64,000 bases of DNA from Corynebacterium sp. P4-C1 (GTDB lineage Bacteria; Actinomycetota; Actinomycetes; Mycobacteriales; Mycobacteriaceae), in assembly GCF_030503595.1 (NCBI RefSeq), contig NZ_CP129966.1:2249419-2313418 (forward strand), read 5' to 3'. Below the pieces are notes generated by a model, which saw only the letters and a list, made by a program, of their open reading frames with translations, was not told the DNA's origin and ran no database searches. Numbering within the stretch: position 1 is the first letter of the stretch; every line of letters begins with the position of its first letter. Of this stretch, positions 3,324 to 17,948 are shown one piece after another. The position numbers and the translations under genes are program-made.

Positions 3324-5171
3324 GTGACTGCACAAGAATCCAAAGTCTTCACCAAGCCCGCCGAATTCACGCTGGCGCCGGGGGACAACTGCCTGACCAT
3401 GATGCTCGCGCAATGCGAGAAGTATCCGGACCAGACATTCTTCTCCCGCCCGGAAGGCCGTGAGTGGATCGAGGTCACCGGCAAGGAATTCGCCGACCAG
3501 GTCCGCGCGGTGGCGAAGGGAATCGTGGCCAACGGCGTGGAGCAGGGCGACCGCGTGGTGCTCATGGGGGAATCCAGCTACGAGTGGGCGTTGCTCGACT
3601 ACGCGATTTGGGCGGCGGGCGCCGCGAGTGTGCCGGTCTACCCGTCGTCGTCGGAGCACCAGGTGCAGTGGATCGTGGAGGACTCCGGTGCGAAGCTGGC
3701 GCTGACCGACACAGAGTCGAACCGCCGCCTCTACGACCACCTGGTGCTCAACGAGGAGGGAAAGGCGCCCCTGCGCGACTCGCCGACCCAGCTGAAGCGC
3801 ACCCTGTCTTTCGCCACCGGTGCGGTGGGCGCGTTGACCACGGACGGCCGCGAGGTCGAGGACTCCGTGATCGACGAGCGGATCTCCAAGATCCAGCACG
3901 ATGATCTGGCTTCGCTGGTGTACACCTCGGGCACCACGGGCCGGCCGAAGGGCTGCATCCTCACCCACTTGGTGTGGGCCTCTCAGGCGAAGGCGCTGCT
4001 GACCAACCCGATCGGCCACTTGATCAACGACAAGCAGGGCACGCACTACATGACGATCCTTCCGCTGGCGCACGTGCTGGCGCGCTCGGTGGCGCTGGCG
4101 AGCTCCATGGGCGGTGCCCACCAGGCGCACTGGGCGGACATGCGGACTTTGACGCTGGCGCTGCAGCGCTTTGAGCCGGAGATGCTGCTCGGCGTGCCGC
4201 GTGTCTATGAGAAGGTCCGCGACGGCGCCTACAACAAGGCGGCGGAAGGGTCGGACTTTGCGGCGCGCACATTCCTTGAGGCGGAGAAGGTCGCTATCGA
4301 GCACTCCAAGGCGATGGATTCGGGGGAGCGGCTGTCGCTGCGCTCCCGGGTGCGCCACAAGGTCTTCGACCGCCTCGTGTACAAGAAGCTCCGCGACGCG
4401 GTCGGCGGGAAGGCGACGCTGGCGATCTCCGGAGGCTCGGCGATTTCGACCGATCTGCTGCACTTCTTCCGCGGCATGGGCATCCCGATCTACGAGGGCT
4501 ACGGTCTGACGGAGACCGCGGCGGCCGCATGCGTGAACTACCCGGGCGGCACGAAGATCGGCACGGTGGGCAAGCCGAACAACGGCTACTCGGTGAAGAT
4601 CAACGAAGATGGCGAGATCTGCTTCAAGGGCGACGGCGTGTTCAAGGGCTACTGGAACAACGAGGAAGCAACGAAGGAAGCTCTTGTCGACGGCTGGTTC
4701 GTCACCGGTGATCTGGGCGAAATCGACGAGGAAGGCTACGTGAGGATCACCGGCCGCAAGAAGGACCTGATCGTCACCGCCGGCGGCAAGAATATTTCCC
4801 CGGGCCCGCTCGAGGACATCCTGCGCTCGGACAAGCTGATTTCCCAAGCTGTGGTGGTCGGCGACGGCAAGCCGTTCGTCGGCGTGCTGGTCACCATTGA
4901 CGAAGATGAGCTGAGCCGCTGGCGCAAGCAGAACAACATGGGCGAGCGCCCGCTGAAGGATCTGGTGAAGACGCCTGAGCTGCGCGCCGCGGTCCAGGAC
5001 GTGATCAACGAGGCGAACAAGACGGTCAGCCACGCCGAGGAGATCAAGAAGTTCCGCATTCTGACCAAGGAATTGAGCGAGGAGAACGGCGAGATCACCG
5101 CCACCATGAAGGTGAAGCGCAACGTGGTCATCGAGAATTACGCGAAGCAGATCGAGCGTCTCTACCGCTAA
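3324..5171 (+). CDS. fadD15: Long-chain fatty-acid--CoA ligase (FadD15-like)
   Basis: AMP-forming acyl-CoA synthetase (615 aa) that activates fatty acids to acyl-CoA for lipid and mycolate metabolism. The adenylation signature YTSGTTGRPKG lies at about residues 199-209, the GYGLTET motif is in the middle and TGRKKD near the C-terminal hinge; the C-terminal lysine-bearing domain ends in KQIERLYR. The start is GTG at 3324 with a GGGAGG site about 9 bases upstream. It is followed 58 bp later by a degraded second copy of the same gene, so this is the functional copy of a tandem duplication. Confidence 0.93.
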   Translation: MTAQESKVFTKPAEFTLAPGDNCLTMMLAQCEKYPDQTFFSRPEGREWIEVTGKEFADQVRAVAKGIVANGVEQGDRVVLMGESSYEWALLDYAIWAAGAASVPVYPSSSEHQVQWIVEDSGAKLALTDTESNRRLYDHLVLNEEGKAPLRDSPTQLKRTLSFATGAVGALTTDGREVEDSVIDERISKIQHDDLASLVYTSGTTGRPKGCILTHLVWASQAKALLTNPIGHLINDKQGTHYMTILPLAHVLARSVALASSMGGAHQAHWADMRTLTLALQRFEPEMLLGVPRVYEKVRDGAYNKAAEGSDFAARTFLEAEKVAIEHSKAMDSGERLSLRSRVRHKVFDRLVYKKLRDAVGGKATLAISGGSAISTDLLHFFRGMGIPIYEGYGLTETAAAACVNYPGGTKIGTVGKPNNGYSVKINEDGEICFKGDGVFKGYWNNEEATKEALVDGWFVTGDLGEIDEEGYVRITGRKKDLIVTAGGKNISPGPLEDILRSDKLISQAVVVGDGKPFVGVLVTIDEDELSRWRKQNNMGERPLKDLVKTPELRAAVQDVINEANKTVSHAEEIKKFRILTKELSEENGEITATMKVKRNVVIENYAKQIERLYR

Positions 5172-13258: not shown

Positions 13259-14596
13259 GTGGATCTGTGGGTGACCTACCTGCTCATCTCGCTGGTGTCC
13301 CTGCTGGGGGCGGGCGTGATGAAAATGCTCGAGTCCGCGCTCGTGCCCATCTCGCGCGCCCGGGTGGAATCGATGGCGAAGGACGATGTCGGCGGCGCTG
13401 CGTCGCTGCTGCGCGTCGTGGACGCGCGGTCGAACCATCTGGGCCTGCTGGCGCTGATCCAGACGGTGCTGGACACGCTCGCCGCTGTGTTCGCCCTGCT
13501 GACCGCCTTGGACCTGATTCCGCAGCGCGGCTGGGCGATCACGGTGGCGATCATCGTGGTTACGCTCATGCGCTTCGGCATCATCGGCGTGATCGCGCGG
13601 CGTGCGGGCAAGCTCAATCCGTACTCGATCTCTCTGCGCGCGGCGCAGATCCTCACCGTCGTCTATGCCGTGTTGGGGCCGGTGTCGAAGCTGCTGATCT
13701 GGATCGGCAACCTCGTCACCCCCGGTGAGGAATCGCTGGAGAACCCGTACGCCACCGACGTGGAACTGCGCGAGGCGGTGGACATCGCGCAGGAACAAGG
13801 CGTGGTGGAGACTGTCGAGCACCGCATGATCCAGAATATTTTCGACCTGGCCACCACTCATGCGCGGCAGGTGATGGTGCCGCGCCCGGAAATGGTGTGG
13901 ATCGAGGCGGAGAAGACCTCCGGCCAGGCGGCGAACCTGATGATCCGCTCCGGCCATTCCCGCGTGCCTGTGATCGGAGAGAGCGTCGACGACATTGTCG
14001 GCGTGATCTACTTGAAGGACATCGTGGAGCGCACCTACAACCGCACCGACGGCGGCAGCGGCGTCGCCGTGTCCGACATCATGCGCGAACCGAAATTCGT
14101 CCCCGACTCCAAGCCGCTGGATGATTTGCTCGCGGAGATGCAGCGGGACCAGACGCACATCGCGGTGCTTGTCGACGAGTACGGCGGGATCGCCGGGCTG
14201 ATGACAATGGAGGACATCCTCGAGGAGATCGTCGGTGAGATCGCGGACGAGTACGACGCCGACGAGGAAGCGCCGATCGAGCCGGTCGAGGAACGGACAT
14301 ACCGCGCGCAGGCGCGGCTTCCGCTCGATGACCTGGTCGATTACCTCGAGGACGAACTCGACTACGACCTCGAATTCGACGAGGAAATCACCGACAACGT
14401 GGAGACGGTGGCCGGGCTGCTGTCGTATGAATTGGGGCGCGTGCCGCTGCCGGGCTCGTATGTGGAAGTCGACGGGTTGCGCTACACCGCGGAAGGCGGT
14501 CACGATCGCCGCGGGCGCGTGAAGGTGCGTACCGTGCTCATCGACGTCCCGGAGCAGCCCCGTGAACAGGACAGGTACCACGACGGTGCACAATAG
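13259..14596 (+). CDS. Hemolysin-type CBS/CorC-domain membrane protein
   Basis: A 445-residue protein of the CNNM/CorC family. The N-terminal DUF21-like transmembrane part has about three to four hydrophobic helices (residues 1-150), then a CBS pair (about 205-325; contains VMVPRPEM and YLKDIVE) and a C-terminal CorC_HlyC domain. Family members are implicated in magnesium or cobalt efflux. GTG start immediately after the ybeY stop, so one operon with phoH-ybeY. The gene normally lies immediately before era; here two kinase-like genes intervene. Confidence 0.9.
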   Translation: MDLWVTYLLISLVSLLGAGVMKMLESALVPISRARVESMAKDDVGGAASLLRVVDARSNHLGLLALIQTVLDTLAAVFALLTALDLIPQRGWAITVAIIVVTLMRFGIIGVIARRAGKLNPYSISLRAAQILTVVYAVLGPVSKLLIWIGNLVTPGEESLENPYATDVELREAVDIAQEQGVVETVEHRMIQNIFDLATTHARQVMVPRPEMVWIEAEKTSGQAANLMIRSGHSRVPVIGESVDDIVGVIYLKDIVERTYNRTDGGSGVAVSDIMREPKFVPDSKPLDDLLAEMQRDQTHIAVLVDEYGGIAGLMTMEDILEEIVGEIADEYDADEEAPIEPVEERTYRAQARLPLDDLVDYLEDELDYDLEFDEEITDNVETVAGLLSYELGRVPLPGSYVEVDGLRYTAEGGHDRRGRVKVRTVLIDVPEQPREQDRYHDGAQ

Positions 14597-14600
14597 GTGC

Positions 14601-15452
14601 ATGAAGAACGTTCTCTCCATCCAGTCGGCGGTCGCCTACGGCCATGTCGGGAATTCGGCGGCGGTGTTTCCGCTCCAGCGGATCGGGCATGAAGTGTGGC
14701 CGGTCTACACCGTGAATTTCTCCAACCACACCGGCTACGGATCGTGGAAAGGGCCGATGATTCCGGCGGAGGACGTGCGCGAGGTCATCGCGGGGATCGA
14801 CGACCGCGGAGCCCTCAAGGATGTCGACGTGGTCCTTTCCGGCTACCAGGGCGGCGACGACATCGCCGAGGTGATCGTGGACACCGTCGCGCGTGTGAAG
14901 GAGCTGAACCCTAAGGCCGTCTACGCGTGCGACCCGGTGATGGGCAACGCGAAATCCGGCTGCCACGTCTCGGACAATATTCCGCCGCTGCTGCGCGACA
15001 AAGTCGTGCCGGTCGCCGACATTATTTCCCCGAACCAGTTCGAACTGGGCTACCTGACCGGGGTTGAGTGCTCCGGACTCGACTCGACGCTCAAGGCGGT
15101 CGAGGAGGCGCAGCGCATGGGGCCAGAGACTGTTCTGGTCACCTCCGTGGAGCGGCCTGACCAGCCAGCGGACGTGCTCGAAATGATCGCGGTGGACCAG
15201 CATGGCGCGTGGATCGTGCAGACACCGCGGCTGCCGTTCAAGCGCAACGGCTCCGGGGATGTCGCGAGCGCACTGTTCACCGGCCACTACATGGAATCGG
15301 GCGACGCGGCGGATGCGCTGGCGAAGACGGCGAGCAGTGTGTTCGACCTGCTGGAAGCCACCTACAAAGCGGATGCGCCGGAGCTGCTCCTGGTGGAGTC
15401 GCAGGAGTTCTACGCGAACCCGCGCATGCAGTTCGAGGTCACCGCGCTGTGA
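14601..15452 (+). CDS. pdxY: Pyridoxal kinase PdxY-like (copy 1)
   Basis: A 283-residue ribokinase-fold kinase expected to phosphorylate pyridoxal in vitamin B6 salvage. The N-terminus NVLSIQSAVAYGHVGNSAAVFPLQ matches the substrate pocket of PdxY/PdxK; PNQFELGYLTG and the catalytic anion-hole motif GSGD (about residue 219) are present. I choose ATG 14601, four bases after the preceding stop, rather than an upstream in-frame ATG inside it. The GTG of copy 2 overlaps its stop. The catalytic signature GTGD is changed to GSGD, a conservative swap. Confidence 0.88.
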   Translation: MKNVLSIQSAVAYGHVGNSAAVFPLQRIGHEVWPVYTVNFSNHTGYGSWKGPMIPAEDVREVIAGIDDRGALKDVDVVLSGYQGGDDIAEVIVDTVARVKELNPKAVYACDPVMGNAKSGCHVSDNIPPLLRDKVVPVADIISPNQFELGYLTGVECSGLDSTLKAVEEAQRMGPETVLVTSVERPDQPADVLEMIAVDQHGAWIVQTPRLPFKRNGSGDVASALFTGHYMESGDAADALAKTASSVFDLLEATYKADAPELLLVESQEFYANPRMQFEVTAL

Positions 15453-17221
15453 ATATCCTCTCCATCCAGTCGGCGGTCTCGTACGGGCACGTGGGCAATT
15501 CCGGCGCCGTGTTCCCGATGCAGCGTCTCGGCCACGAGGTGTGGCCGGTGCACACCGTCAATTTCTCCAACCACACCGAATACCCGTCGTGGCGCGGCCC
15601 GAAAATCGCGCCGCGAGATGTCGCCGATGTGCTCGACGGAATGTGCTCCGCCTACCCGCTCGTGGACGTGGTTCTGACCGGCTACCTGGGATCCTCTGCG
15701 TTGGCGTCTGTCATCGTCGGAGCGGTGGGGGAGATCAAGCGGGCGAACCCGGAAGCGGAGTGGGTGTGCGACCCAGTGATCGGCAACGCCAAAGTCGGTT
15801 CGTTCGTCGACGACGACATTCCGGCGATCTTCAAAGAGGAGATCATCCCGCTGGCCGACGCCATCTGCCCGAACCAGTGGGAGCTGGCGCTGCTCACCGG
15901 CAGGGAGCTGAACAGCATCGGGGAAACGGTCGATGCCGCCCGGGCGCTGAAGAGCAGGGCCCTGATCACCAGCGTGGACACGGGGAACCCTGAGACGATC
16001 GGCATGCTAGACATCTCCGAGGAGGGAGCCTGGTACGTGGAAACACCGCGCATCGGGGGAAACGTCGTCGGCGCCGGCGATCTCGCCGCCGCGATGTACA
16101 CCGCGCTCATCGACGAGGCTCCAGCCGATCGTCTCGAGCACATCGCCGCGTCCCTATACGGCATGGTCGTGGCCGCGCAGAAAACGACCCGGCTGGACAA
16201 CAGCTTCGCCGGGTTGCCGTTGGTGGAGCGGCAGGACCTCATCGTGGCACCGGAAGACAGTTTCAGTGCCGTACCATCAGCAGGCATGGACCACCTTTCC
16301 CAGTTCACCGACACCCCGGAGGGCTTCCGCTCCGGATTCGTCAGCTTCGTCGGCCGCCCTAACACGGGCAAATCGACGCTGACGAATGCTCTGGTGGGCG
16401 AGAAGATCGCCATCATGGCCGACCAGCCGGAGACCACCCGCCACCCGATCCGCGGCATCGTCAACCGCGACGACGCGCAGATCGTCGTTGTGGACACGCC
16501 CGGCCTGCACCGCCCGCGCACGCTGCTGGGCGAACGCCTCAACGAGGTGGTCAAGGACACTTTCGCGGACGTGGACGTGATCGGACTGACCATTCCCGCG
16601 AACGAGAAGATCGGTCCCGGCGACCGCTGGATCCTCGACGCGGTGCTGAAGACGAAGCCGGGCACCCCGATTGTCGGCATCGTGACCAAGCTCGACCGCG
16701 CCGGGAAGGACCAAGTGGGCGAGCAGCTGGTGCGGCTGCACGACATGCTGGTGGAGGCCACCGGCAGCGAGAACGTCGATGTCGTGCCCGTGTCCGCGAC
16801 TGAGGATGTCCAGCTGGACGTGCTTCTCGACGTGTTGGCTTCCCACCTGCCGGAAGGGCCCCGTTTCTACCCGGAGGGGCACGTCACCGACGAGGACACC
16901 GAGACGCGCATCGCCGAGCTGATCCGCGAAGAGGCGCTGCGCGGCTTGCGCGACGAACTGCCGCACTCCGTGGCGGTGCAGGTGGACGAGATCATCAACG
17001 AAGGCGGCCGCGCCAAGATCTACGCGGTGATCTACCTCGAACGTCCGGGCCAGAAAGCGATCATCGAGGGCCGGGACGGCCGGCGCCTGTCCGGTATCGT
17101 GCAGCGCTCGCGCAAGCAGATCATGGAGCTGGTCGGCCAGAATGTCTATTTGGACCTGCGCATCAAAGTGCTGAAGAACTGGCAGTCTGACCCGAAGCAT
17201 TTGGGGCGCCTTGGCTTCTAG
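15449..17221 (+). CDS. PdxY-like kinase (copy 2) read in frame into Era
   Basis: One uninterrupted frame of 590 codons. Residues 1 to about 279 are a second pyridoxal-kinase-like protein (NILSIQSAVSYGHVGNS, PNQWELALLTG, and GAGD in place of GTGD), homologous over its whole length to copy 1. The frame then continues without a stop into Era, whose usual start Met falls at 16286. The junction sits exactly where copy 1 ends, so the kinase stop codon seems to be lost. GTG 15449 overlaps the copy 1 stop by four bases. Either a bifunctional kinase-GTPase is made, or Era starts internally, or both. Lost stop and internal initiation cannot be separated from sequence alone. Confidence 0.75.
   Translation: MNILSIQSAVSYGHVGNSGAVFPMQRLGHEVWPVHTVNFSNHTEYPSWRGPKIAPRDVADVLDGMCSAYPLVDVVLTGYLGSSALASVIVGAVGEIKRANPEAEWVCDPVIGNAKVGSFVDDDIPAIFKEEIIPLADAICPNQWELALLTGRELNSIGETVDAARALKSRALITSVDTGNPETIGMLDISEEGAWYVETPRIGGNVVGAGDLAAAMYTALIDEAPADRLEHIAASLYGMVVAAQKTTRLDNSFAGLPLVERQDLIVAPEDSFSAVPSAGMDHLSQFTDTPEGFRSGFVSFVGRPNTGKSTLTNALVGEKIAIMADQPETTRHPIRGIVNRDDAQIVVVDTPGLHRPRTLLGERLNEVVKDTFADVDVIGLTIPANEKIGPGDRWILDAVLKTKPGTPIVGIVTKLDRAGKDQVGEQLVRLHDMLVEATGSENVDVVPVSATEDVQLDVLLDVLASHLPEGPRFYPEGHVTDEDTETRIAELIREEALRGLRDELPHSVAVQVDEIINEGGRAKIYAVIYLERPGQKAIIEGRDGRRLSGIVQRSRKQIMELVGQNVYLDLRIKVLKNWQSDPKHLGRLGF
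16286..17221 (+). CDS. era: GTPase Era (domain or internal start)
   Basis: A 311-residue GTPase needed for 16S rRNA processing and 30S assembly. G1 GRPNTGKST, G3 DTPGLH, and G4 TKLD are intact, and the C-terminal KH RNA-binding domain carries the GRDG loop. ATG 16286 (MDHLSQFTD) is the likely native start, but it lies in frame within the longer kinase-Era frame and has only a weak AGCAGG nearby. Its stop overlaps recO by 11 bases. The position before recO and uppS is the normal actinobacterial order. Confidence 0.88.
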   Translation: MDHLSQFTDTPEGFRSGFVSFVGRPNTGKSTLTNALVGEKIAIMADQPETTRHPIRGIVNRDDAQIVVVDTPGLHRPRTLLGERLNEVVKDTFADVDVIGLTIPANEKIGPGDRWILDAVLKTKPGTPIVGIVTKLDRAGKDQVGEQLVRLHDMLVEATGSENVDVVPVSATEDVQLDVLLDVLASHLPEGPRFYPEGHVTDEDTETRIAELIREEALRGLRDELPHSVAVQVDEIINEGGRAKIYAVIYLERPGQKAIIEGRDGRRLSGIVQRSRKQIMELVGQNVYLDLRIKVLKNWQSDPKHLGRLGF

Positions 17222-17948
17222 ACCCAGCTTCCGCGACCGCGCCTTCGTCGTGCGCACCTACGACTTCGGCGAAGCCGACCGCGTCGTCGTGCTGCTCACA
17301 GAAAACCACGGTCTCGTCCGGGCCGTAGCGAAAGGCGTGCGGAAGACGAAGAGCCGTTTCGGTTCGAGAGTGCAGCCGTTCGTGGACATCGACGTGCAGC
17401 TCTACCCGGGCCGCAACCTGGCCACCATCACACAGGCCGACACCGTCGCGTACTACGGGCGCGGCATCATCGAGGACTTCGACCGCTACACCGCCGCCTG
17501 CGCCGTGCTGGAGGCGGCGGAGAAGCTCAGCTACGCCGACGAGGCGGATTCCTTCCTGTTCGCGGAAGTGGGAACAGCGCTCGAGGCTCTGCAGGACACG
17601 GATTTCCCCACACTGGTGCTCGACGCATTCATCCTGCGGGCCACCGCGCATGCCGGCTGGGGGCTGAGCCTGTTCGATTGCGCCCAGTGCGGCCGCCCGG
17701 GGCCGCACCACGCCTTCCACCCGGCCGTCGGCGGGGCGGCGTGCGTGCACTGCCGTCCGCCTGGCTCCTTCGATGTCCAGGAGGACACCCTGCACATCAT
17801 GTGGCTGCTCGCCGGGGGCTACCGCGGCGCGGCGGAGCAGAAGCTGACTGAGACGACGGCAATTCAGGTGCACCGGCTATCCACCGCCCACCTGCAGTTC
17901 AATGTGGAATCGGCCGTGTCTTCGCTGAAGATCATGGAGCAGGCATAA
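17211..17948 (+). CDS. recO: DNA repair protein RecO
   Basis: A 245-residue recombination mediator that loads RecA with RecR. The N-terminal OB fold starts [15 protein letters not shown]; the four-cysteine zinc site is seen as CAQCGRPG and CVHCRPPG about 20 residues apart. The start is TTG 17211 within the end of era, with GGGGCG just upstream. Its stop shares a base with the uppS start. Confidence 0.92.

Follow-up and report, generated by a model that had tools for sequence, protein, structure and literature searches.

In-frame fusion of a second pyridoxal-kinase-like gene to era in a few Corynebacterium species, with a predicted leaderless start for free Era

The window analysed here, a stretch of 64,000 nucleotides from Corynebacterium sp. 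P4-C1, carries two pyridoxal-kinase-like genes in a row, the second of which runs without a stop codon into the gene for the GTPase Era, forming a single uninterrupted frame of 590 sense codons (15449-17218) closed by a TAG at 17219-17221. In profile searches residues 1-274 cover nearly all of the pyridoxal kinase model and residues 293-590 all of the Era model, and the era ATG at 16286 stands five codons past the point where the matches to the kinase models end. Judged by these matches, the join sits at the natural end of the kinase. An earlier sequence-only reading had stated both that kinase and Era share a stop-free frame of 590 codons and that the join falls exactly where the kinase paralogue ends, and both statements hold. 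The features of the locus are as follows.

14601..15452, + strand: pdxY1, pyridoxal kinase PdxY, the ordinary copy (PRK05756, 380 bits, cut-off 292; TIGR00687, 313 bits, cut-off 144.5)
15449..15452, + strand: GTGA overlap of the pdxY2 start codon (GTG) and the pdxY1 stop codon (TGA), read from the sequence
15449..16285, + strand: pdxY2, second pyridoxal-kinase paralogue, full length, without a stop codon of its own (TIGR00687, dN/dS)
16271..16285, + strand: junction, the five codons VPSAG between the end of kinase homology (the model match ends at residue 274) and the Era Met
16272..16277, + strand: TACCAT, predicted -10 box of the era promoter, 8 nt before ATG 16286 (sequence comparison)
16286..17221, + strand: era, GTPase Era, 311 aa, with a predicted leaderless start at ATG 16286 (NF000908, TIGR00436)
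16340..16684, + strand: GTP-binding domain of Era, MMR_HSR1, residues 298-412 (domain search)
16955..17185, + strand: KH domain of Era, KH_2, residues 503-579 (domain search)

The GTGA overlap between pdxY1 and pdxY2 recurs in all five genomes that carry the fused frame (see below), while C. lubricantis has TAATG. No ribosome-binding site was seen in the sequence at the GTG start of pdxY2, which suggests that this gene is probably translated by coupling from pdxY1 across the overlap. Another overlap in the same gene row occurs at the far end, where the next listed frame, recO-like by reading, has its TTG start inside the last era codons (17211-17221).

The Era part belongs to its family by score, with 327-330 bits against NF000908 (cut-off 237) and 203-205 bits against TIGR00436 (cut-off 116), and like other members it has a complete GTP-binding domain followed by a complete KH domain. 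It is the only Era found in the genome (search at E <= 0.001); beyond it, that search matched pdxY1, and a Der-like protein, which has two G domains, gave two weak matches. What sets it apart from GTPase Era elsewhere is that its frame extends upstream through an entire kinase, which would stand in front of it when read from the operon mRNA. The C-terminal end of Era is free in the fusion. Among 55 eras whose start is led by a promoter box (discussed below), the stretch ahead of the conserved GF(R/K)SGF is 7 to 60 residues long, which argues that the genus tolerates additions at the N-terminal end of Era. In era (16286-17221), L001 and L005, the two genomes of the window's species, show five amino-acid-changing and two silent differences, a pattern unlike the strong constraint between species and one of too few changes to interpret.

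The kinase part is full length and a member of the pyridoxal kinase family, scoring 225-228 bits against TIGR00687 (cut-off 144.5), but with 265-268 bits it falls under the cut-off of the stricter PdxY model PRK05756 (292), which pdxY1 passes. The GxGD motif with its Asp is kept, as VVGAGD in the window; of 20 PdxY2 rows, 19 read VGAGD or VGSGD, and the one that did not match the pattern is that of C. lubricantis. The active-site cysteine of PdxY is Cys122 of the E. coli enzyme; all 20 PdxY2 rows have a serine where all 25 PdxY1-type rows have a cysteine, and the NHTGYG of the PdxY1 type reads NHTEYP in PdxY2. These two replacements suggest that the substrate of PdxY2 may have changed relative to that of PdxY, and PdxY2 is named here as a kinase paralogue, one whose substrate may differ from that of pyridoxal kinase. 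A literature search for PdxY together with Cys122 found no paper. The genome also has a PdxS homologue, and gave no match to the PNPOx_N family. Purifying constraint on the paralogue is strong in the species that carry the fusion, as dN/dS for pdxY2 lies at 0.07-0.11 (dS 0.5-1.0; six pairs from four fused species), with 0.085-0.13 for pdxY1 and 0.05-0.09 for era in the same species, and at 0.31-0.39 when pdxY2 is compared with the C. lubricantis copy. The low values within the fused species make it very probable that the PdxY2 protein is produced and matters, and they rule out a decaying copy for the fused clade. Elsewhere in the genus, in C. bouchesdurhonense (L045, about 4853-5053), the tandem pdxY2 looks broken, with stops in the place of its first codons and an in-frame stop 66 codons on, and PdxY2 therefore seems dispensable in that species.

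Comparison with era in close relatives, proposed by the sequence-only reading as a check, shows the join in some of them too: among the matches listed, the frame is open through both genes in 5 of 242 genomes of the genus, spread over four species, namely the window's own genome (G000), a second one of the same species (G183) and three of other species (G172, G229 and G009). Ten further listed genome rows align over both genes, nine of them nearly in full and one (G133) partially, and each has at least one internal stop. Searched with the kinase alone, 16 of the 242 genomes show a close PdxY2 (E <= 1e-80), and in the same five only is it joined to Era. Among the best 120 of 3850 hits in a collection of 5.8 billion proteins, eight protein clusters carry the full join; they align along 100% of the query with 89-100% identity, and several comprise many members or contigs. 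Among those 120 hits full-length matches end after the eight clusters, and no more distant PdxY2-Era fusion was seen, although one remote in both halves could escape this search. The open frame in relatives, the protein clusters and the selection on the kinase thus bear out the earlier claim that a second pyridoxal kinase is really fused in frame to Era.

The openness of the junction as such says little about the join. In a neutral simulation, the 13 codons before the era ATG stay open in four lineages by chance with a probability of about 0.36-0.58, which makes the open linker uninformative as evidence for fusion, and the linker's own dN/dS is loose (0.2-1.1, on few changes); on these comparisons the meaning of the join rests on selection on the kinase, not on linker openness. 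From -150 to +73 nt of the era ATG, the other two frames are free of stops in the five fused genomes, two of which have a single exception at -65 or -62, and no such stop lies within 60 bases of the junction in any of the five. A scan for X-XXY-YYZ heptamers from -120 to +30 found TTTCCCA at +10 only, inside era, and on both counts escape by frameshifting at the junction was rejected. Given the selection on PdxY2 and the lack of a nearby other-frame stop, translating PdxY2 should yield PdxY2-Era. In the structure predicted by AlphaFold for the fusion (78 aligned sequences), two parts are folded and the joint between them is of low confidence, with pLDDT <50 at residues 278-287, a mean of 79.7 and a pTM of 0.51, and the model therefore predicts no fixed arrangement of kinase and Era.

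How free Era might be made from the same locus is suggested by the DNA just ahead of ATG 16286. The sequence-only reading had supposed that a start here would depend on a weak ribosome-binding site and internal initiation, and the best Shine-Dalgarno match is indeed only 3 of 6 in all five fused genomes. The same five genomes all have TACCAT at a spacer of 8 before the ATG, as expected of the box of a leaderless gene. In C. glutamicum, according to a part of PMC3890552, 33% of mRNAs are leaderless and TAnnnT lies 3-11 nt upstream of about 97% of start sites, and for mycobacteria a part of PMC4633059 describes an ATG or GTG at the 5' end as both necessary and sufficient. The era locus resembles the leaderless C. 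glutamicum genes of the former source, as far as that part goes, in having a TAnnnT box a few bases before the ATG, which in C. glutamicum is also the mRNA 5' end; it differs in that the box lies inside the frame of the upstream fusion partner and in that its transcript start is predicted, not mapped.

The box is widespread ahead of era in the genus. With starts picked without regard to the box, 42 of 70 non-fused eras have TANNNT 6-9 nt upstream of the nearest in-frame ATG (15 of 85 were dropped, having no usable nearest ATG), and 35 of the 70 have it at exactly 8 nt; the 42 stand against a mean of 2.2 and a maximum of 8 of 70 in 1000 rounds of simple shuffles; after thinning of similar sequences the pattern is found in 34 of 54. 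When the box was allowed to guide the choice of start, 55 of 90 eras had one, 46 of them at a spacer of 8, a count that is not independent because the box helped choose the start codons. The other 35 of the 90 lack a box 7-9 nt before an in-frame ATG or GTG, and some of them (L015-L017) show a GGAG-like ribosome-binding site instead. A spacer of 8, that of the fused genomes, is the commonest among the eras examined. Within the fused frame the box region is spelled GTA CCA TNN GCA GGC, in codons that are rare in eight frames of the window (GTA 0.8% of 253 Val, CCA 6.8% of 133 Pro, GCA 7.3% of 288 Ala). Its fourfold sites are identical in the four species at 4 of 4 positions, as compared with 46 of 131 in pdxY2 overall, and the TNN codon varies among Ser, Tyr and Cys while its T stays constant. 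By this pattern the box is conserved as DNA and not as protein, and ATG 16286 looks less like a start with a weak ribosome-binding site than like a leaderless one, conserved as such. A generic sigma-70 scan of 14400-17400 gave no promoter on the + strand, and no -35 element was seen by eye for the era promoter.

Relatives of the fused species show how close the two genes can come. In the kinase tree the PdxY2 branch is separate from PdxY1 and is joined by stand-alone kinases of other corynebacteria, though the program issued a warning on long branches, including that of the C. lubricantis copy. In C. lubricantis the kinase and era lie in one frame with two stops between them, a TGA 18 and a TAA 9 bases before the era ATG. 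Three non-fused genomes have the box at the spacing of the fused ones: in G146 and G154 it reads TACCCT and takes up the final two codons of the kinase, whose stop is 8 bases ahead of the era ATG, and in G010 it reads TAGCAT and comes immediately after a kinase stop that stands 17 bases ahead of the ATG. In this comparison four rows (L006, L097, L063 and L061) bear on the pdxY2 stop, the kinase tail taken for the other five (L001, L005, L007, L008 and L009) being that of pdxY1, and the box and spacer can be read in all nine. In the Era tree the Eras of the fused genomes and of the fused protein cluster P0008 group together (support 88/96, under the program's star threshold), which makes a single origin of the fusion likely. 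The join is found in at least five lineages, that of P0008 being known from the protein collection only. A sister of P0008 in the kinase tree (support 100/94), the metagenomic kinase P0121 (285 aa, 85% identity), passes through the linker and the Era Met and meets a stop six codons later; the join may have been undone in that lineage, or its metagenome contig, of 2037 bases, may be wrong. No stand-alone Era was recognised for P0121 among the best 120 of 7999 hits, and the Era tree does not place the closest short Era among them, P0241 (319 aa, 87%), within the fused group.

We consider it probable that the locus has two products, a kinase-Era fusion translated from the operon mRNA and a free Era made from a promoter within the kinase's final codons. 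What this explanation takes directly from the DNA is the open frame and its conservation, the selection on both halves and the conserved box at its usual spacing. The ancestor shared by a small Corynebacterium clade would have lost the pdxY2 stop at a time when the kinase end and the era promoter were already touching or overlapping. Ribosomes on pdxY2 in the operon mRNA, arriving there by the presumed coupling from pdxY1, would continue into era and produce PdxY2-Era, of 590 aa and about 64 kDa. A second, shorter mRNA, driven by TACCAT in the last kinase codons, would begin at or just before ATG 16286 and give ordinary Era, of 311 aa and about 34 kDa, by leaderless initiation. Both products would then accumulate, and free Era would be what made the loss of the stop tolerable. 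Where the sequence-only reading posed a choice between the fusion and an Era starting at 16286, the evidence thus favours both.

Of the other explanations, one holds that in effect free Era alone accumulates, with PdxY2-Era hardly translated or cleaved at the junction. The low confidence of the model at residues 278-287 would suit cleavage and the bare GTG start of pdxY2 would suit poor translation, yet the dN/dS of pdxY2 indicates a kinase protein that is made and matters, and we regard this explanation as unlikely. Distinctly unlikely, too, is a join that was itself selected, the kinase bringing B6 sensing or phosphorylation to Era and the 30S subunit, or coupling the amounts of the two proteins, an idea compatible with two products. 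Speaking for it are the presence of the join in the lineages listed above, that of P0008 included, the retained GAGD motif of the kinase, and a comparable join of kinase and GTPase, cytidylate kinase-Der, that forms the NCBIfam family NF007071. Against it, the model shows no order between the domains, the openness of the linker is expected by chance, the join is apparently undone in P0121, and PdxY2 itself is broken in C. bouchesdurhonense and was found, at the threshold given above, in a small minority of the genomes. That ATG 16286 is silent and Era always bears the kinase in these species would fit the poor Shine-Dalgarno match, the open frame and the selection on both halves, but it leaves a -10 box at the usual spacing and a set of frozen rare codons without obvious use if nothing starts there, and it is improbable. 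Equally doubtful is an elaborated form of the selected join, a gene with dual output in which PdxY2-Era would deliver a diverged kinase of the B6 type to 30S subunits under assembly and let ribosome maturation respond to the state of B6 or ATP; Era in unmodified form would come from the internal leaderless promoter, and the two mRNAs would be made in a regulated ratio. A sequencing or assembly error, in the form of a lost base or missed stop such as the sequence-only reading had raised for the junction, is virtually excluded, as independent assemblies of four species, many contigs and the eight fused protein clusters share the open frame. The fusion is most likely a tolerated by-product and not a selected device. 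Provided that the metagenome contig of P0121 is sound, not all relatives have retained it; it is confined to a handful of species and is readily explained by stop loss between touching genes.

The locus is surprising in one respect, the joining of an essential GTPase to a metabolic kinase, and it offers a natural case of a ribosome-assembly GTPase of this kind in frame with such an enzyme. Its relatives display the preceding stages, from genes that are apart, through a kinase stop beside the era promoter box, to genes that are fused. With this locus one can test the idea that leaderless promoters within coding ends allow stop loss and fusion while the free downstream protein stays. For annotation pipelines it is a warning that both products of such a locus may be real. 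The suggestion that a vitamin B6 kinase joined to Era would be a new domain combination stands as far as the protein-collection and literature searches reach: no description of an Era-pyridoxal kinase fusion was found, and among the papers listed by the broader literature searches (15 of 1283 and 8 of 45) none was on the combination. By name, the family of cytidylate kinase with GTPase Der (NF007071, PRK09518) is similar in joining a small-molecule kinase to a ribosome-assembly GTPase, while in PdxY2-Era both the kinase and the GTPase are different ones; a literature search on cytidylate kinase with Der found no paper. In the present genome the cmk- and der-like genes, so named by reading of their translations, adjoin with a 4-base overlap (L003 2154-2157) and are unfused.
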